From Candidatus Omnitrophota bacterium (GTDB lineage Bacteria > Ratteibacteria > UBA8468 > B48-G9 > JAFGKM01), in the NCBI GenBank assembly GCA_023818645.1, contig JAMWCJ010000009.1:1-38173 (forward strand): a stretch of DNA of 38,173 bases. Reading direction: 5' to 3'. This document shows positions 1,624-21,788 of this stretch, piece by piece. Within the stretch, counting starts at the first letter, position 1; the number at the start of each line of letters is the position of its first letter. Under the pieces are notes generated by a model. The model ran no database searches, was not told the DNA's origin, and saw nothing but the letters and a program-made list of their open reading frames with translations. The position numbers and the translations under genes are program-made.

Positions 1624-2358
1624 TTAATAAGCATAGATTTTACCATAAGGTCTTTTTGAAACAGGTATTAACTTTATAAACTGATTTGAAAGAATTTTTT
1701 CTAATTCATTATTAAAGTAATTACAAAATTTCTCAATATAATTTTTTATCCTTCCAATTTCATCTTTTTTTGCTTTAAATATTTTGACTTCTTTACCAAT
1801 AATATTTTCGTCAATCTCACCTTTTATGAAAATTTCTCCTCCATGCATGCCTGTTCCTATAAGTTCTCCAACAACTCTATTTTTTTCTTCTAAATTTAAA
1901 ACTATGATTAAACCACCTGCCATATATTCTCCAAGAAAATCTTTTGCAGTTCCACCAATAACTATAACTGGATATAAATTTTTATATGCTTTCATATGTA
2001 TTCCAACTCTATATCCAACATCACCTTTTACATAAATTTCTCCACCTCTCATTGAATGTCCCAATATATCACCAGCATTTCCATTTATTATTATTTCACC
2101 TGAATTCATTGTATTTCCAACACCATCTTGACAATTACCATTAACAAAAATTTTAGAGCCATCCATAAAACAAGCAAGGTCATTTCCAGGAATACCATTT
2201 ATATAAATTTCAATTTCTTTTCCTTTTAAACCAGCACCAATGTATCTTTGTCCAAATAGATTTTCAATATAAATTCTTTTATAACCTTTTCTTATCAATT
2301 CTCTTATTTTCTCGTTCAAAACTTTATAATGCAAGGTATCCGCGTCTATTTTGGTCAT
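1624..2358 (-). CDS. Glutamate synthase C-terminal (GXGXG) domain as a separate protein
   Basis: Repeated G-x-G-x-G beta-helix motifs (GNDLACFMDGSKIFVNGNCQDGVGNTMNSGEIIINGNAGDILGHSMRGGEIYVKG). Confidence 0.9.
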   Translation of the reverse strand: MTKIDADTLHYKVLNEKIRELIRKGYKRIYIENLFGQRYIGAGLKGKEIEIYINGIPGNDLACFMDGSKIFVNGNCQDGVGNTMNSGEIIINGNAGDILGHSMRGGEIYVKGDVGYRVGIHMKAYKNLYPVIVIGGTAKDFLGEYMAGGLIIVLNLEEKNRVVGELIGTGMHGGEIFIKGEIDENIIGKEVKIFKAKKDEIGRIKNYIEKFCNYFNNELEKILSNQFIKLIPVSKRPYGKIYAY

Positions 2359-3668
2359 ACTTCTATCCCTTCTCCTTTTACAATATGTTTTCTATAACTT
2401 TCTGGTAGGATTAAAAGGCCAAATTTATCATCAATTAAAAATTTTTTTATAAGGTGAATATCAACTTTATTTCTAATTAAACCACATATTATTCCTGCTC
2501 TCTCAATATCACCAAGAAAAATTGCTCCAACAATTCTATTTTCTTTTATTACAATTTTTCTATATATTCTTTTTTCATAATCGACTTTCTTCAATATTTC
2601 ATAATCTTTTTCATTTTTAGGATTTGTTATACCAAAAGATATAGTTGAGATTCCGATAAAATCAACAGAATTCATTATAAACATCCCTTCATATTTTTTA
2701 TCTCCACCTGCCATATTAATTCCTGCTATTTTTCCCTGTTTACTTGCTCTTGGCCATATTGGAATAACTGTTTTAATACCTTCAAATTCATATGTTTCTG
2801 CTACATCTCCTCCTGCAAAAACAAAAGGAAAATTTGTTCTCATATATTCATCAACAATAATTCCTTTATTTTTTTCTACCTTTGTTCCTTCTATTAAATC
2901 TGTATTTGGGAAAACTCCAATTGCTATTACTAAAACATCTAAACTTATCTTTTTCCCATCTTTTAATACTATCTCTTTTAAAATACCATTTTTACTTATA
3001 ATCTTTTCTATTGTATTTTCTTTTATTATTTCACAATTATTTTCTTTAAGTTTATTCTCAATTATTTCTGATGCCAATGAGTCAAAAGTATTTGGTAATA
3101 TCTTATCGGAAAGTTCTATAACTGTTAAAGATATTCCCTTCCCTAAAAATCCCTCAGCACATTTTAGACCAATTAACCCACCTCCAAGAATTACAACTTT
3201 TTTAATTTCCTTTTCTTCAAAATATTTTTTAAGTTTTTTTGCATCATTTAATTTTGTAAATGTAAATGTTCCTTTTTCAGTATTTTCAATACCTTCTATT
3301 TTTGGTAATATAGGTTTACCACCTGTGCCTAAAAAAATATAATTAAATTCAAAATTACCAGAGGTTGTATATAAAATCTTCCTATCTAAATCAATTTTTT
3401 CACACTTTGTCTTTAAAAATAAATTTATTCTATTTTTTTTATAAAAATCTATCTCTTTAAAATTCAACTGATTTTCTTTAAGGCGACCTTCTAAATAATA
3501 AGAAATTAAAGGTCTTGAATAATTAAAATATTCTTCATCTGAAAAAACATAAATTTCTCCATCACTATCAATTTCTCTTATCCCTTCTATACAACTAACA
3601 CCTGCAATTGAATTCCCAACAATTACATATTTTCTATTCTTCAATCCTTTCTCCTTTTTCATCAACAA
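2355..3668 (-). CDS. FAD/NAD(P)-dependent pyridine nucleotide-disulfide oxidoreductase
   Basis: YVIVGNSIAGVSC dinucleotide fold, VVILGGGLIGLKCAE second Rossmann, VFAGGDVAE motif. Confidence 0.88.
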   Translation of the reverse strand: MLMKKEKGLKNRKYVIVGNSIAGVSCIEGIREIDSDGEIYVFSDEEYFNYSRPLISYYLEGRLKENQLNFKEIDFYKKNRINLFLKTKCEKIDLDRKILYTTSGNFEFNYIFLGTGGKPILPKIEGIENTEKGTFTFTKLNDAKKLKKYFEEKEIKKVVILGGGLIGLKCAEGFLGKGISLTVIELSDKILPNTFDSLASEIIENKLKENNCEIIKENTIEKIISKNGILKEIVLKDGKKISLDVLVIAIGVFPNTDLIEGTKVEKNKGIIVDEYMRTNFPFVFAGGDVAETYEFEGIKTVIPIWPRASKQGKIAGINMAGGDKKYEGMFIMNSVDFIGISTISFGITNPKNEKDYEILKKVDYEKRIYRKIVIKENRIVGAIFLGDIERAGIICGLIRNKVDIHLIKKFLIDDKFGLLILPESYRKHIVKGEGIEV

Positions 3669-4098
3669 GAATTATTGCTTCATTTGGGCAATTCTTAACA
3701 CATGCTGGAAATCCACTTTCAATGCATAGGTCACACTTTGAAGCAACCTTTTTATTCTTTAAATCCACTTTAATAACACCTAAAGGACATACCATAACAC
3801 ACATCCAGCAACCAACACATTTTTCTTTATTATATAAAATTGCTCCTGTTTTTCTATTTTTATACATTGCTCCTGTCAAACAACTTTCAACACAAGGTGG
3901 ATCTTGACAATGTCTACATTGTATAGCAAATGAAATATAACCTACTTCCTCAAAATATATCCCTGAAACAGGTCTTGGTTCATTCCCTTTAAATGTTTTT
4001 ATTATATCTTTTGTTTTTGAGTGTTCAGTTATACAGAAAACTTCACACAATCTACATCCTATACAATATTCTTCCCTAATTAAAATTTTCTTTACCAT
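3634..4098 (-). CDS. Ferredoxin-like 4Fe-4S protein (electron-transfer subunit)
   Basis: Multiple CxxCxxC...C motifs (CIGCRLCEVFC, CRHCQDPPCVESC, CVGCWMCVMVCP, CDLCIESGFPACVKNCP). Confidence 0.9.
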   Translation of the reverse strand: MVKKILIREEYCIGCRLCEVFCITEHSKTKDIIKTFKGNEPRPVSGIYFEEVGYISFAIQCRHCQDPPCVESCLTGAMYKNRKTGAILYNKEKCVGCWMCVMVCPLGVIKVDLKNKKVASKCDLCIESGFPACVKNCPNEAIILVDEKGERIEE

Positions 4099-5612
4099 GC
4101 TTCTCCAACATTTTTAATTCCAAGTATTTTAAGTTCTAATTCATTTAATCCAATACCTCTTAATTGTTCTCTATTGCCTCTTAATGATTCAATTGCATTT
4201 ATTCCCATACATCCAAGCATTTCTTTAATTTCAAGTGACCATCCTCTTAAAAGATTATATGCTCTTTTTGCTCCTATTTCTGGATTTAAACGTCTTGTTA
4301 AATATGGGTCTTGGGTTGCTATTCCCCAATTACATTTTCCTGTATAACATTTTTGACATAAATGGCATCCAAAACAAATCAATGCAGCAGTTCCAATATA
4401 AACAGCATCTGCTCCAAGAGCAATTGCTTTTATTACATCTGAACTTTTTCTAAAACCACCCGCTGCAATTATAGAGGCGTAGTTTCTTATACCTTCTTCT
4501 CTCAATCTTTGGTCAACAACTGCTATTGCTATTTCAATAGGAATACCAACATTATCCCTTATTATTTTTGGTGATGCTCCTGTTCCTCCTCTTACACCAT
4601 CAATTACTACAAAATCTGCTCCTGCCCTAACTATTCCACAGGCAATTGGTGCAACATTATGTACCGCTGCTATTTTAACTCCAACAGGTTTTTTATATTC
4701 TGTTGCCTCTTTAAGAGCATAGATTAATTGTTTTAAGTCCTCAATTGAATAAATATCGTGATGAGGTGCTGGAGAAATAGCATCAGTTCCTTCAGGTATC
4801 ATTCTTGTTTTACTTATTTCTTCTGAAACTTTTTCTCCAGGTAAATGGCCTCCTATCCCTGGTTTCGCACCTTGACCTATTTTTATTTCAATTGCACTTG
4901 CCTTTTTTAAATATTCAATATCTACTCCAAATCTACCACTTGCAACCTGAACAATACATCTATCTGAGTAAGGGTAAAGTTCTTCATGTAATCCTCCTTC
5001 TCCTGTATTCCAATATGTTCCAAATTCTTTTGCCGCTTTTGCAAGTGATTTCATAGCATTTAAAGATATTGAACCAAAACTCATTGCTGAAAACATAATA
5101 GGAGTTTCAAGTTCAATTTGAGGGGGAATTTCAGTTTTTAAAATTATATTCTCATTTTTATTTATATATTCAATCCTATCTGGTTTTCTACCTATAAATG
5201 TTTTCAATTCCATTGGTTCTCTTAAAGGGTCAATTGAAGGGTTTGTTACCTGTGATGCATTTAATAAAATATGGTCAAAATAACTTTTATATTCTTTGTC
5301 ACATCCCATTCCAGTTAAAATCACACCTCCTGTTTCTGCTTGTTTTTGTATATCTAAAATATATTCTTTTTCCCAATAATAATTTCCTTTTATATCAGAA
5401 GGATTTCTTATTATTCTTATTGCACCTGTTGGACATATACTTTCACAAAAATGGCATCCAACACATTTAAAATTGTCACTTCTAACTATGTTTTCTTCTG
5501 AATCATAAGTATGAACATCATTAGAACACATACGAACACACGCTTGACATTGTATACACTTTTCCTCATCTCTTTCAACAATAAACTCACTTATCTTTTT
5601 TACTTTTGCCAT
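4092..5612 (-). CDS. Glutamate synthase FMN/central domain with N-terminal 2x[4Fe-4S] ferredoxin
   Basis: Two CxxCxxC motifs at N-terminus; PIMFSAMSFGSISLNAMKSLAKAAKEFGTYWNTGEGG and GQGAKPGIGGHLPG motifs typical of the GltB synthase domain. Confidence 0.95.
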   Translation of the reverse strand: MAKVKKISEFIVERDEEKCIQCQACVRMCSNDVHTYDSEENIVRSDNFKCVGCHFCESICPTGAIRIIRNPSDIKGNYYWEKEYILDIQKQAETGGVILTGMGCDKEYKSYFDHILLNASQVTNPSIDPLREPMELKTFIGRKPDRIEYINKNENIILKTEIPPQIELETPIMFSAMSFGSISLNAMKSLAKAAKEFGTYWNTGEGGLHEELYPYSDRCIVQVASGRFGVDIEYLKKASAIEIKIGQGAKPGIGGHLPGEKVSEEISKTRMIPEGTDAISPAPHHDIYSIEDLKQLIYALKEATEYKKPVGVKIAAVHNVAPIACGIVRAGADFVVIDGVRGGTGASPKIIRDNVGIPIEIAIAVVDQRLREEGIRNYASIIAAGGFRKSSDVIKAIALGADAVYIGTAALICFGCHLCQKCYTGKCNWGIATQDPYLTRRLNPEIGAKRAYNLLRGWSLEIKEMLGCMGINAIESLRGNREQLRGIGLNELELKILGIKNVGEAW

Positions 5613-6682
5613 TTTGCTTTAAAAATAACTGGTTTTCCTGCTTCTACTTGATATACATCAACAAGATTTTTACTTATAACTTTTATTGCAGATTCTTCTG
5701 ACGATAAATAATAATAATTTTCATCTTCAGCAGCAACAAGTGGTCTTAATTTTATTCTATCATTCAAACCAATCATATATTCTGAATTTGAAACAATTAT
5801 TGCAAATGGACCATTGACAAGAGCAGGCCCATAAATAATCCTTAATGTTTTTAAAAAATTTTTGAAATTTTCATCTTTAATTCTTTCTATTTGAAACCAA
5901 AAAGGAGATGCAATAATATTCCCAATCGTTTCAAAGTCAAGTTTATGTTTTCTATAAAGTAAATCAAATAGATATGTAATAACTTCTGTATCTGTGTAGA
6001 GTGTACAATAATAACCAAAATTTTCAAGGTATCTTCTATTTATTCCATAACTTGAAATTTCACCATTATGAACAACTGACCAATCAATAATTCCAAAAGG
6101 ATGAGCACCACCCCACCATGCAACTGTATTTGTTGGGAATCTATTATGTGCAGTCCATAAGTATCCCTTATATTCATAAATTTTATAAAAATCAGCAATT
6201 TCATCAGGATTCCCCACTCCTTTAAATATTCCCATATTTTTTCCAGAAGAAAAAACAAAAACATTTTCTATATTTTTATTTATAAACATAACTTTCTCTA
6301 TTATAATGTCTTCTTCTGATAAACCATTCAATTTTTCTTCTTTTATTTTTAAAAAGTATCTCCAGAGATTTGGAATAGAATTTAATTTTTTATTTTTTTT
6401 AACTGAAATTGGTTCTGAATGGATTATTTCAAATGTTTCTTCTAAATAATTTTCAAGAATTTCAAAATCTTTTTCAGAATTATACATTATATGGAAACAC
6501 CATTTATCAGAAAAATCTGGATAAATTCCATATCCTGCAAATCCAGAACCAAGTCCATTTCCTCTTTCAATCATATTACAAATAGAAATTATAATTTTTT
6601 CACCCGAAAAAATTTGTCCATTTTTTGATATAATTCCAACAATACCACAACCAGAAGGTATGTGAAAATTCCTGTCATCCAT
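5600..6682 (-). CDS. Glutamate synthase N-terminal class II glutamine amidotransferase domain as a separate protein
   Basis: Short propeptide before Cys (HIPSG-CGIVGI), HNRFPTNTVAWWGGAHPFGIIDWSVVHNGEISS. Confidence 0.93.
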   Translation of the reverse strand: MDDRNFHIPSGCGIVGIISKNGQIFSGEKIIISICNMIERGNGLGSGFAGYGIYPDFSDKWCFHIMYNSEKDFEILENYLEETFEIIHSEPISVKKNKKLNSIPNLWRYFLKIKEEKLNGLSEEDIIIEKVMFINKNIENVFVFSSGKNMGIFKGVGNPDEIADFYKIYEYKGYLWTAHNRFPTNTVAWWGGAHPFGIIDWSVVHNGEISSYGINRRYLENFGYYCTLYTDTEVITYLFDLLYRKHKLDFETIGNIIASPFWFQIERIKDENFKNFLKTLRIIYGPALVNGPFAIIVSNSEYMIGLNDRIKLRPLVAAEDENYYYLSSEESAIKVISKNLVDVYQVEAGKPVIFKAKWQK

Positions 6683-6687
6683 TTTAT

Positions 6688-8019
6688 TTATAAAATTGGT
6701 AAATATGTTTTTATTTCATATTCATGAACTATTTTTCTATATTCATCCCATTCAATTTTTTTTGCAGTTAATAAATTTGTATATATATGTTCTCCAAGTA
6801 CTTCTTTTAACAATTCACTTTTTTCTGCTATTTCTATTGCTTCTATTAAACTTCCTGGTAAAACATCAAGTCCTAATTTCTTTCTATCTTCCTCTGTTAA
6901 ATGGTAAACATCCATTTCAAGTGGTTTTGGCAATTGGTAATTATTATCAATCCCTTTCATTCCTGCTCTTACCATACAAGCAAAAGCAAGATATGGATTA
7001 CAGGCAGGGTCTGGTGAACGAAATTCAATCCTTGTTGATTTTTCTCTACCAGGTCTATACATAGGGACTCTTATTAAAGTACTTCTGTTTCTTCTCGCCC
7101 AGCATATATATACAGGTGCTTCATATCCAGGAACAAGTCGTTTATATGAATTTACCCATTGATTACAAATAAAAGTAATCTCTTTTGAATGTTTTAAAAG
7201 GCCGGCTATATATTTTTTTGCAAGAATACTTAGATAAAATTCATCTTTTGGATCAAAAAAAGCGTTTTTTTCTCCTATAAATAATGATTGATGAGTATGC
7301 ATTCCACTACCGTTAACTCCATATATTGGTTTTGGCATAAATGTTAAATAAAGCCCATATTTAGAAGCAATCTCTTTAGCTATCATTTTGTAAAACATAA
7401 CTATATCTGCCATTGTTAGAGCATCTGTATATCTTAAATCAATCTCATGTTGACTTGGTGCTACTTCATGATGAGAATATTCAACTTTTATTCCCATCTC
7501 TTCAAGTGTTAAAATAATCTCTCTTCTTACATCAGTCGCTGCATCAAGTGTCGTTACATCAAAATATCCTCCTTCATCAAGTATTTCTGTTGTTTTATCA
7601 TTCTTAAATATAAAAAATTCAAGTTCTGGACCGACATAAAATGTATATCCCTTTTCTTTTACATATTGTAGATTTTTCTTCAATATATATCTTGAATCAC
7701 CTTCATAAGGAGTTCTATCTGGATTTAATATATCGCATATCATTGCTGCAACTGCTTTTTCTTTTGGTCTATAAGGTAAAATTGTAAAAGTATTTGGGTC
7801 TGGTAAAGCAACCATATCTGATTCATCTATTCTTGCAAATCCTTTTATTGAAGAACCATCAAATCCCATACCGTCTTCAAGTGCTCCTTCAAGTTCTTCT
7901 ACTGGAATAGAAAAACCTTTCATCTGTCCAACAATATCTGAAAAAAACAATCTTATAAATTTTATATCTCTTTCTTTACAAATATTTAAAACATCCTTTT
8001 TGTCCAGTTTTTCATTCAT
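6688..8019 (-). CDS. glnA: Glutamine synthetase type I
   Basis: MGFDGSSIKGF, GPELEFFIF, GSGMHTHQSL, EFRSPDPACNPYLAFA motifs. Confidence 0.98.
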   Translation of the reverse strand: MNEKLDKKDVLNICKERDIKFIRLFFSDIVGQMKGFSIPVEELEGALEDGMGFDGSSIKGFARIDESDMVALPDPNTFTILPYRPKEKAVAAMICDILNPDRTPYEGDSRYILKKNLQYVKEKGYTFYVGPELEFFIFKNDKTTEILDEGGYFDVTTLDAATDVRREIILTLEEMGIKVEYSHHEVAPSQHEIDLRYTDALTMADIVMFYKMIAKEIASKYGLYLTFMPKPIYGVNGSGMHTHQSLFIGEKNAFFDPKDEFYLSILAKKYIAGLLKHSKEITFICNQWVNSYKRLVPGYEAPVYICWARRNRSTLIRVPMYRPGREKSTRIEFRSPDPACNPYLAFACMVRAGMKGIDNNYQLPKPLEMDVYHLTEEDRKKLGLDVLPGSLIEAIEIAEKSELLKEVLGEHIYTNLLTAKKIEWDEYRKIVHEYEIKTYLPIL

Positions 8020-8686
8020 TTCTTCCCTCCTTTTTTAAATTTAGAAAATTCTTAATTATTTTTTCACCATATTTTTTTACCTCATTTATTTTTTCAGTAT
8101 TTTTTTGATTTGTCAAATCAAAAATTAATTTTTCATCAAATTCAATATGAAATTGAAAACCATATAAGTTTTTGCCAATTTTAAAACCTTGATGCTTCCC
8201 TTCCCTATCTTTTACAAGTAAGATTCCTTCCTTAGGAACTTCAAAACAATCATTGTGGTATTGATAACAAGGAAAGGTTTTAGGTATGCCTTTAAAAATC
8301 TTGTCTTTTTCACCTTTTTCTGTTAGTTCAACTTCAAAAAATCCAATTTCATTACATATATTTAAATTTACTTTTCCATTAAATGTTTTTGCAAGTATTT
8401 GTGCTCCTAAACATATACCAAGAAAAGGAATATCTATTTTATTAACTTTTTTTATAAATTTAACTTCTTCTTTTAAAAAAGGGTATTCTTTTTCTTGATA
8501 AACATTCATTGAACCACCAAGTAAAAAAATAAAATCTATATTTTCAATCTTTTCTGGTAGTTTTTCACCTTTTTCAAGTTCAATTATCTTATATAGGATA
8601 TTCATTTTTTTCAAAATATTTTCAATTATTCCAGGTCCTTCCCTAATTTCATGTTTAATTATTAAAGCATTTTTATATTGCTGCAT
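8012..8686 (-). CDS. Stand-alone class I glutamine amidotransferase (GMP-synthase GATase-like)
   Basis: Catalytic GICLGAQ cysteine motif and FQFHIEF His/Glu; overlaps glnA and glnK. Confidence 0.85.
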   Translation of the reverse strand: MQQYKNALIIKHEIREGPGIIENILKKMNILYKIIELEKGEKLPEKIENIDFIFLLGGSMNVYQEKEYPFLKEEVKFIKKVNKIDIPFLGICLGAQILAKTFNGKVNLNICNEIGFFEVELTEKGEKDKIFKGIPKTFPCYQYHNDCFEVPKEGILLVKDREGKHQGFKIGKNLYGFQFHIEFDEKLIFDLTNQKNTEKINEVKKYGEKIIKNFLNLKKEGRNE

Positions 8687-9011
8687 TTCCTTTTTCTCCT
8701 GTTCTTATTTTTATCACATTTTCAACTGGTAAAATAAAAATCTTGCCATCCCCAATTTCTCCAGTTCTTGCTGTATCAATTATGACTTTTACTATTTTTT
8801 CAACATCAATATCTTTTGCAATGATTTCTACTTTAATCTTCTCTATAAATTCAACTTTATATTTTTCTCCTCTCCAGTTGCGCACTATCCCTCCTTGTTT
8901 CCCACAACCTTCTACATCAGTGATAGTTAAACCATAATGACCAATTTTTTCAAGTTTTTCTTTTACTTTGAGTAAAAATTCAGGTCTTATTATTGCTTCA
9001 ATTTTTTTCAT
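8673..9011 (-). CDS. glnK: Nitrogen regulatory protein P-II (GlnB/GlnK)
   Basis: MKKIEAIIRPEFLLKVKEKLEKIG...VEGCGKQGG...IFILPVENVIKIRTGEKG. Start re-assigned to ATG at 9011; track start (9074) adds 21 aa inside the amtB end. Confidence 0.95.
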   Translation of the reverse strand: MKKIEAIIRPEFLLKVKEKLEKIGHYGLTITDVEGCGKQGGIVRNWRGEKYKVEFIEKIKVEIIAKDIDVEKIVKVIIDTARTGEIGDGKIFILPVENVIKIRTGEKGNAAI

Positions 9012-9024
9012 AATTTCCCCTTTT

Positions 9025-10323
9025 TCAAAAATATGTTTTTTTAATATAAAATTCAGGATAGGAAATATTCCCATGTTCTCCTATATCAAGACCTTCTATC
9101 TCTTCTTTTAAACTAACTCTTATACCAATTGTTTTTTTAATTAATATCCAGAAAATTAAAGATGTAATAAAAACAAAAATACCAACGCTAATAATCCCTA
9201 CTATTTGTGTCAATAAAAGTTTAATACCACCTTTGTAAAGAAGTCCATCACTACAAGTTATCCCACATATACCATTTTTTGCAAAAAGTCCAACAGATAG
9301 AGTACCAAAAATACCATTTACAAGATGGACTGATAGAGCACCAACAGGGTCATCAATTTTTATTTTATCAAAAAATATCACAGATAAAACAACCAAAATC
9401 CCAGCAATAAATCCTATAATCATAGAAGCAGCAACTGTTACAAATGCACATGGTGCAGTTATAGCAACTAATCCTGCAAGACAGCCATTTAGAGTCATAC
9501 CAAGGTCTGGTTTACCAAGTAAAATATATGAAATTATGGTAGAACTAATCATTGCAGTTGTAGCAGAAGTATTTGTTGTAACTACTATATGACTTATTGC
9601 AATAGGGTCTGCTGTCATAGTAGAACCGGGATTAAATCCAAACCAACCAAACCATAAAACAAATGTTCCAATAGTTGCAAGTGGTAAACTGTGTCCAGGG
9701 ATAATATTGGTTTTCCCATTTTCATATTTCCCAAAGCGCGGTCCTAATAATAAAACACCTGCAAGTGCAGCCCACCCACCAACTGAATGAACAACAGTTG
9801 AACCAGCAAAATCAAGCATTCCAAGTTTACTAAGCCAGCCACCTCCCCATACCCAGTGCCCAACTATAGGATATATAAACATACACATCAAAAAACTGAA
9901 GATAATAAAAGAGGTATACTTAATTCTTTCTGCAACAGCACCTGAAACAATTGTTGCTGCTGTTCCACAAAATGCAAGTTGAAAGAAAAATTTTGCATAT
10001 AAAGGAACTTTAACCCATGATAATGCAGAATAAACTCCTTTATAATTATCCCCTATTGAGGGAGAATTATCTGGTCCTTGTAAAAGAAATAATCCTTTAA
10101 AACCAATGAACCCATTTCCATCACCAAACATTAATCCCCATCCAACAAATAAAAAAGCAAGAGATGTAACTGCAAAAACAATAAAATTCTTTGATAGAAT
10201 ATTTGTTGTATTTTTTGTTCTTGTAAAACCACTCTCTACCATAGCAAAGCCAAGATTCATAAAAAATACAAGTTTTGCAGTTACTAAAACCCAAATAGTA
10301 TTCACAATTGTTGTAATATCCAT
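9025..10323 (-). CDS. amtB: Ammonium transporter
   Basis: NFMNLGFAMVESGFTR-type N-terminus, DFAGSTVVHSVGGWAAL, FGWFGFNPGST, twin-His region HLVNG. Confidence 0.97.
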   Translation of the reverse strand: MDITTIVNTIWVLVTAKLVFFMNLGFAMVESGFTRTKNTTNILSKNFIVFAVTSLAFLFVGWGLMFGDGNGFIGFKGLFLLQGPDNSPSIGDNYKGVYSALSWVKVPLYAKFFFQLAFCGTAATIVSGAVAERIKYTSFIIFSFLMCMFIYPIVGHWVWGGGWLSKLGMLDFAGSTVVHSVGGWAALAGVLLLGPRFGKYENGKTNIIPGHSLPLATIGTFVLWFGWFGFNPGSTMTADPIAISHIVVTTNTSATTAMISSTIISYILLGKPDLGMTLNGCLAGLVAITAPCAFVTVAASMIIGFIAGILVVLSVIFFDKIKIDDPVGALSVHLVNGIFGTLSVGLFAKNGICGITCSDGLLYKGGIKLLLTQIVGIISVGIFVFITSLIFWILIKKTIGIRVSLKEEIEGLDIGEHGNISYPEFYIKKTYF

Positions 10324-10335
10324 TTTTAACCACCT

Positions 10336-10375
10336 AAAAACAAAAAGGCGCTTTCCCCTCCTTGGGGAAAACGCC
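10336..10375 (-). terminator. Intrinsic terminator in the amtB leader
   Basis: Minus strand GGGCGTTTTCCCC-AAGGA-GGGGAAAGCGCC followed by TTTTTGTTTTT, ending about 13 nt before the amtB ATG, so amtB mRNA must read through it. Confidence 0.85.
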
Positions 10376-10409
10376 CTTGTTTTTTAAAATTTTAATCCTA
10401 CTTTGGATT
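10368..10409 (-). promoter_or_regulatory. ANTAR-type tandem hexaloop hairpins (P1/P2 antiterminator) upstream of amtB
   Basis: Minus strand P1 AATCC-AAAGTA-GGATT (10394-10409) and P2 AAAAC-AAGGGC-GTTTT (10368-10383); both loops have A1 and G4; P2 overlaps terminator 5' arm. Confidence 0.65.
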
Positions 10410-10462
10410 TTCTTTCTTTATATTATTAAAGTAAAAATTTTCTATTTTTGGTAACTAAAAAA

Positions 10463-10948
10463 TTAAATTTCTATTTTTTTTAAGCCAGTCACCTTGCTTT
10501 TAATTTTTTTGATAATTTTAATTACCATAACATGAGAAATTCCTAAAGTTTGTCCAATTTCTCTTGTTGTATATCCTTCTATTATAAGATTTACAACTTT
10601 TTTTTCTCTCTCATTTAACAAATCATATATTTCTTCTAAATCTATTAAATATGAATTTTTTTTACTTACTTTTTCAAAACATATATTCTTTTCCATCAAT
10701 TCGTCCAAACTTATAAATTTTTGAGATTTATTTTTTCTCATAAAATTTTTAAAATAAAAATAACACCTTTTTAAAATATATCTCTCATTTTTCCCTTCAA
10801 GATTCCCATTGTTCCATTCAATCCATAAATATAAATAAATTTCTTGAAGCAAATCATCTTTTTCAAAGATATTATTTCTATTTTTAAATTTTCTCAATAT
10901 ATAGTCTAATTTACTATCCAATTTTTTAATAAGTTCTAAATATTCCAT
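10463..10948 (-). CDS. Sigma-70-family-like regulator (region 2-like plus region 4/LuxR-type HTH)
   Basis: DDLLQEIYLYLW region-2-like segment; LNEREKKVVNLIIEGYTTREIGQTLGISHVMVIKIIKKIKSKV HTH. Confidence 0.7.
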   Translation of the reverse strand: MEYLELIKKLDSKLDYILRKFKNRNNIFEKDDLLQEIYLYLWIEWNNGNLEGKNERYILKRCYFYFKNFMRKNKSQKFISLDELMEKNICFEKVSKKNSYLIDLEEIYDLLNEREKKVVNLIIEGYTTREIGQTLGISHVMVIKIIKKIKSKVTGLKKIEI

Positions 10949-12569: not shown

Positions 12570-12605
12570 CCCTCATTGGGCAGGAACTTCTTTGTTCGGG
12601 TGAGG
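12570..12605 (-). promoter_or_regulatory. Structured nadE leader with one ANTAR-like hexaloop hairpin
   Basis: Minus strand CCTCACCC-GAAC-AAAGAA-GTTC-CTG-CCCAATGAGGG; hexaloop AAAGAA identical to the gltB-like leader P1 loop; alternative CCTCA/TGAGG pairing. Confidence 0.4.
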
Positions 12606-12642
12606 ACATTCTCTTTTTTCATTTTTACATATTTTAAATTCT

Positions 12643-21721: not shown

Positions 21722-21762
21722 AAAATAAAAAAGGTCCTTTCTCTTCTCTGAGAGAAAGGACC
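21722..21762 (-). terminator. Intrinsic terminator in the leader of the gltB-like gene
   Basis: Minus strand GGTCCTTTCTC-TCAGAGAA-GAGAAAGGACC plus TTTTTTATTTT, followed by AAAGGAGG SD and ATG at 21703. Confidence 0.9.
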
Positions 21763-21788
21763 CCTTTGTCCTCTTTACTTCTTTGTAA
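21757..21788 (-). promoter_or_regulatory. ANTAR-type tandem hexaloop hairpins (P1/P2 antiterminator) upstream of the gltB-like gene
   Basis: Minus strand P1 TTAC-AAAGAA-GTAA (21775-21788), linker aga, P2 AGGAC-AAAGGG-GTCCT (21757-21772); loops carry A1 and G4; P2 3' side overlaps the terminator 5' arm. Confidence 0.72.

Follow-up and report, generated by a model that had tools for sequence, protein, structure and literature searches.

The stretch of DNA analysed here (the window, 38,173 nt, to whose full length all coordinates refer; its genome is designated G000) carries on the minus strand, immediately before an ammonium transporter gene, two small hairpins and an intrinsic terminator. The question raised by this locus is what governs that terminator, and for which genes. 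It is considered very probable that the leader (10409-10336) is an ANTAR-controlled transcription attenuator, activated by a GAF-ANTAR protein and serving the genes for the ammonium transporter, PII, glutamine synthetase and a split glutamate synthase. Nitrogen assimilation is probably governed by this single GAF-ANTAR through the present leader and two sister leaders.

Anatomy of the amtB leader

The sequence features are collected in Table 1. Read on the minus strand, the letters of P1 and P2, their A1/G4 loops and their C-G closing pairs are exactly those of a preliminary description of this DNA, and the overlap of P2 with the 5' arm of the terminator, also claimed there, is confirmed: that arm includes half of P2, namely GGGC from its loop and GTTTT from its 3' arm, while the gap between the U-tract and the amtB ATG (10323) amounts to 12 nt. 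The minimum free energy (MFE) fold given by RNAfold consists of P1 plus the terminator, so that P2 needs stabilising by something else in order to win. Linkers of 5-12 nt are found across the E. faecalis eut leaders, with lengths of 3 or 14 nt impairing function (PMC3369931), and the linker of the amtB leader falls inside this range. All the sequence features of ANTAR target RNAs are thus found in the leader (tandem hairpins of at least 3 bp, A1/G4 hexaloops, C-G closing, the linker and the terminator overlap), and the same genome encodes an ANTAR protein with the RNA-contact residues. Anatomy and loop rule together support its assignment as a putative ANTAR antitermination leader. Rfam returned no credible family for the leader even at E 10, and only a tRNA reached the gathering score in the window.

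As regards the earlier proposal that one switch serves the whole amtB-GOGAT block, the tight co-directional packing of the genes stands as observed, whereas the single transcript is something that we infer from this packing. No consensus sigma-70 site, i.e. no recognisable promoter upstream of P1, was found in 10330-10560, so the transcript that the leader controls could be a read-through product of nadE rather than one of its own. An A/T-rich block, GTTACCAAAA...GAAAATTTTTACTTTA (10460-10412, minus strand), lies upstream of P1; it is conserved between G000 and a member of the same genus, G001, and holds no recognisable sigma-70 promoter. Between nadE and amtB, a minus-strand gene (10463-10948) encodes a protein of 161 aa that has a sigma-r4/LuxR-like HTH at its C-terminus.

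Table 1. Features of the amtB leader, the genes behind it and the two sister leaders.
Feature	Position	Strand	Remarks
P1 hairpin AATCC[AAAGTA]GGATT	10394..10409	-	A1, G4, C-G closing, 5 bp; sequence and rule scan
P1-P2 linker	10384..10393	-	10 nt; sequence
P2 hairpin AAAAC[AAGGGC]GTTTT	10368..10383	-	A1, G4, C-G closing, 5 bp; mutually exclusive with terminator
Intrinsic terminator stem-loop GGGCGTTTTCCCC-AAGGA-GGGGAAAGCGCC	10347..10376	-	MFE fold; terminator scan, shuffles mean 0.0
P3, terminator apex in hexaloop register CCC[AAGGAG]GGG	10355..10366	-	A1, G4, C-G closing
Terminator U-tract TTTTTGTTTTT	10336..10346	-	11 nt; sequence
amtB, ammonium transporter	9025..10323	-	TIGR00836
glnK, PII family	8673..9074	-	
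Class-I glutamine amidotransferase-like protein	8012..8686	-	
glnA, type I glutamine synthetase	6688..8019	-	TIGR00653 over cut-off
GltB amidotransferase-like domain protein (split glutamate synthase)	5600..6682	-	Weak family matches: glutamine amidotransferases, GOGAT N-terminus
GltB FMN/ferredoxin-domain protein (split glutamate synthase core)	4092..5612	-	Glutamate synthase large subunit 9e-83, below curated cut-off
Fe-S, FAD-oxidoreductase and GltB-C-terminal-like subunits	1624..4098	-	Complete the split glutamate synthase cluster
gltB-like/carAB/guaA operon leader	21722..21788	-	TTAC[AAAGAA]GTAA, GGAC[AAAGGG]GTCC, terminator apex TCTC[AGAGAA]GAGA
nadE leader	12570..12613 (region 12613-12548)	-	Three hexaloop hairpins GAG[AATGTC]CTC, GAAC[AAAGAA]GTTC, CCC[AATGAG]GG; terminator-less

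Rarity and conservation of the arrangement

According to a rule-based scan of both strands of the window, the amtB leader is the sole combination of a dual hexaloop (stems of at least 5 bp) with an overlapping terminator, and 30 Markov-shuffled copies of the window yielded no dual hexaloop with terminator at all. The scan was extended to nearly the whole of the congener G001 (1.73 Mb, with 1.8 kb of one contig left out), where the stringent dual hairpin with terminator was again found at the amtB leader only, and where seven classes of rule-breaking loop letters gave zero instances with a terminator. Of the 1567 genes called in G001, only 2 are preceded by at least two canonical hairpins in the 190 nt before the gene, namely amtB (three hairpins) and the gltB-like gene (two). 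The exact pattern GGACRNNGNNGTCC has one match per genome, which is the gltB-like leader, and a gapped pattern has only a chance-like match in the host genome. A chance origin of the arrangement in the amtB leader is rejected.

When the two congeners are compared, P1 and P2 of the amtB leader stand at -80 and -55 in G001 against -81 and -55 in the host, and the P1 stem AATCC/GGATT is replaced by GATCC/GGGTC through one double compensatory change (A-T to G-C) and one wobble change. G4 is retained in both loops of G001, with G instead of A at position 1 of the P1 loop. For the gltB-like leader, P1 passes from TTAC/GTAA to ACAC/GTGT by two double changes (T-A to A-T and T-A to C-G), and its loop in G001 has 7 nt. 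Inspection of the sequences showed ANTAR-type hairpins before amtB in five further relatives (G008, G020, G021, G022 and G027), for instance GGGGGC[ATGGAA]GCCCCC and GGT[AAAGAC]GCC in G008, and before gltB-like genes in eight (G001, G002, G016, G018, G021, G022, G024 and G026), sometimes with three to four in tandem. In four of these gltB-like leaders (L044, L046, L047 and L049, from G021, G026, G022 and G016, respectively), three to four consecutive hexaloop hairpins fit the rule and no clear terminator is seen. A linkage between absence of the leader and absence of an ANTAR gene is seen in one genome, G010, which has amtB, no detected ANTAR gene and no such leader before amtB; in G017, which has both an ANTAR gene and amtB, no leader is evident beside amtB, which there comes just after nadE.

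Across most leaders loop position 1 is A or G, and G4 is nearly always kept. The known structure points the same way, the protein reading G4 and making no specific contact with A1 (PMC8934654). Judging from these loops, either A or G may be allowed at position 1.

A covariance model was built from 14 hairpin pairs, partly from the leaders discussed here. Since MAFFT misplaced P1 when the natural linkers were left in the alignment, longer linkers were trimmed to about 3 nt, which makes the model artificial; its pair counts are biased, the hairpins having been picked for pairing. The three best matches in the window were the gltB-like, nadE and amtB leaders, of which the nadE leader lay outside the training set. 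The gltB-like leader, itself in the training set, was the best match in the host genome (36.2 bits), and the amtB leader had only a weak score of 14.9 bits (genome-wide E about 3). In G000 and G001 alike, the matches in front of nitrogen genes were these same three, while the other matches inspected lay mostly inside open reading frames or had no evident leader layout.

Sister leaders of the gltB-like operon and nadE

The gltB-like leader, to which the amtB leader had been likened in the preliminary description, is real: its two hairpins are separated by aga and followed by a terminator. Its linker of about 3 nt has the length that impaired E. faecalis eutP. Behind this second ANTAR leader, at 20132-12831 on the minus strand, the genes gltB-like, glutamine amidotransferase, carA, split carB (two parts) and guaA are closely packed, and their products mostly use glutamine.

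The leader of nadE is of a different build, with hexaloop hairpins and no terminator in G000, G001 and G005. In the host leader the first hairpin has a G-C closing pair and a 3' arm that complements the Shine-Dalgarno sequence of nadE, as is also the case in L157 and L158; in G000 and G001 the pairing of this arm (CCTC or CTCCTT) with the Shine-Dalgarno sequence is formed by RNAfold. Such an anti-Shine-Dalgarno arm suggests that the nadE leader acts in translational control, and it may be hypothesised that ANTAR binding would free the ribosome site. The theme common to the genes that bear these leaders is the making and spending of glutamine.

The terminator apex as a possible third loop

The apex of the amtB terminator can itself be read as an ANTAR-type hexaloop, P3, although in the host this register competes with the pentaloop CCCC[AAGGA]GGGG, which is the MFE register. 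Within the genus, each of the four leaders of amtB and gltB-like genes has an apex that fits the loop rule (CCC[AAGGAG]GGG, CCC[AAGGCC]GGG, TCTC[AGAGAA]GAGA and TCCC[AAAGTG]GGGG), compared with 0 of the 71 other terminators of G001. At the loci of relatives, an ANTAR-type apex is present in 7/11 terminators that overlap a P2 and in 2/36 that do not, a difference for which calculation by hand gave about 1.6e-4, a significance overstated since the sequences are related. At more distant GAF-ANTAR loci the corresponding counts are 3/35 and 5/151, which marks the ANTAR-type apex as a feature of the lineage and not as a general one. The model of a three-loop switch, in which recognition of P3 would bring the terminator, besides P1 and P2, within reach of the regulator, and in which one GAF-ANTAR would run the amtB, gltB-like and terminator-less, translational nadE leaders, is put forward tentatively and is, taken as a whole, somewhat doubtful. 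If bound by the protein, the third loop would constitute a variant of the ANTAR leader; it would extend the antitermination model in a way that can be tested.

A single GAF-ANTAR protein as the candidate regulator

One ANTAR protein was detected in the host genome (1.97 Mb, 93% complete; E 2e-21). It is a GAF-ANTAR of 246 aa, encoded on another contig and followed by a purF-type gene. In comparison with EutV (6wsh), 8/9 RNA contacts are kept (R142, K143, K147, E160, Y164, M172, N173 and R175), R177 being replaced by S; the contacts were taken from PMC8934654, whose numbering is offset by 2 residues from that of the chain. The named genomes with the closest relatives of this protein are mostly Ca. 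Omnitrophota MAGs, joined by Aerophobetes, Desantisbacteria, Caldatribacterium and others, and the genes of these relatives often adjoin glnA, glnK, amtB, gltB-like, nadE or carA, where similar leaders are often present. Upstream of the ANTAR gene itself, in G002 (L007) and likewise at L180, ANTAR-type hairpins (one or more) followed by a terminator suggest autoregulation. NifA-type GAF domains are the basis for guessing that the ligand might be 2-oxoglutarate or another indicator of nitrogen/carbon status.

A single ANTAR protein fits the view, advanced earlier, of a shared regulator as opposed to a copied repeat; the stems of the leaders differ from one another while the loop rules hold.

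Proposed mechanism and alternative explanations

By default, RNA polymerase would make P1, the terminator would form using the loop and 3' arm of P2, and transcription would stop before amtB. Once nitrogen status calls for assimilation, the single GAF-ANTAR would be activated as a dimer, load on P1 and then be passed to P2; with P2 held shut, the terminator would be prevented, and amtB, glnK, glutamine synthetase and glutamate synthase would be transcribed. Binding of the GAF-ANTAR at the leader, antitermination upon binding and the sensing of nitrogen/carbon status by the GAF domain are all predictions that we infer here.

The hairpin could instead be the plain 3' terminator of an upstream nadE-HTH operon, with small hairpins that arose by chance and an amtB start that is its own and unregulated. 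It does lie between two genes, the HTH gene ending at 10463, 53 nt upstream of P1; yet G001 preserves both hairpins, their loop rule and their spacing with altered stem letters, amtB and the gltB-like gene stand essentially alone in that genome in having the arrangement, and the short gap between U-tract and ATG leaves no room for a promoter plus leader. This explanation is very improbable. Control of the terminator by a metabolite-binding riboswitch or by another protein, the hexaloops being incidental, would find a candidate in the adjacent HTH gene, for which blastp gave relatives that in several related loci are neighbours of ANTAR, amtB, glnK or nadE genes; the conserved A/T-rich block upstream of P1 also speaks for it. 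Against it speak the lack of a credible Rfam family for the region, the recurrence of the loop rule before the gltB-like gene and nadE with no shared stem sequence, and the match of the hexaloops to the known ANTAR binding unit, all of which make such control highly unlikely.

A different matter is the sense of regulation, since the apex, fitting the loop rule in all four amtB and gltB-like leaders examined in the genus, could let the protein hold the terminated state as well. The GAF-ANTAR might then act in the opposite sense, or P3 binding might make the leader repressible rather than inducible. However, the characterised terminator-type ANTAR leaders (eut, nas and ami) are antiterminated on binding (PMC3369931, PMC8934654), and the mutual exclusion of P2 and terminator is an antitermination layout, so that a reversed sense is judged unlikely and GAF-ANTAR-activated attenuation remains the preferred reading of the amtB leader.

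Comparison with known ANTAR systems

NitR of Clostridium saccharobutylicum is a putative ANTAR antiterminator next to glutamine synthetase and GOGAT genes (glnA-gltAB); the likeness to the present locus lies in gene context, the organism being a different one. ANTAR RNAs before ammonium transporter, PII, glutamine synthetase and GOGAT genes, including glutamate synthase leaders of Desulfotomaculum, were reported by Ramesh et al. 2012 (PMC3369931), so that the kind of control proposed for the amtB leader is not new; for these gene classes it was put forward there from bioinformatics, the experimental proof being for eut. The resemblance extends to dual small A1/G4 hexaloop hairpins, a P2 that overlaps the terminator and the same gene classes. 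In contrast, the only ANTAR protein found here belongs to the GAF-ANTAR class, for which that study gives no characterised member, the lineage is uncultivated and Ca. Omnitrophota-related, and the terminator apex forms a third ANTAR-type loop.

With the E. faecalis EutV-eutP system, the amtB leader and its candidate regulator share the layout, the range of the linker and the RNA-contact residues except R177, whereas EutV has a receiver domain under the control of the kinase EutW, the protein described here has a GAF domain, with no kinase implied, and the target genes differ (PMC8934654). The actinobacterial ANTAR RNAs likewise have dual hexaloop hairpins, and ANTAR regulation is described there as able to act on translation besides elongation (PMC8164766); the amtB leader differs by having a terminator, and only the sister nadE leader looks translational.

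To the known ANTAR leaders, the sequences described here suggest three additions: an apex hexaloop in the genus, A or G at position 1, and a terminator-less nadE leader with an anti-Shine-Dalgarno arm. Taken together, they suggest that in an uncultivated lineage ammonium uptake, PII, glutamine synthetase and glutamate synthase are controlled after initiation by one GAF-ANTAR, under which glutamine-using nucleotide synthesis and NAD synthesis probably stand as well. As the 2012 study knew of no characterised GAF-ANTAR, the protein and its leaders provide a defined set of protein and RNA with which the GAF signal can be sought.
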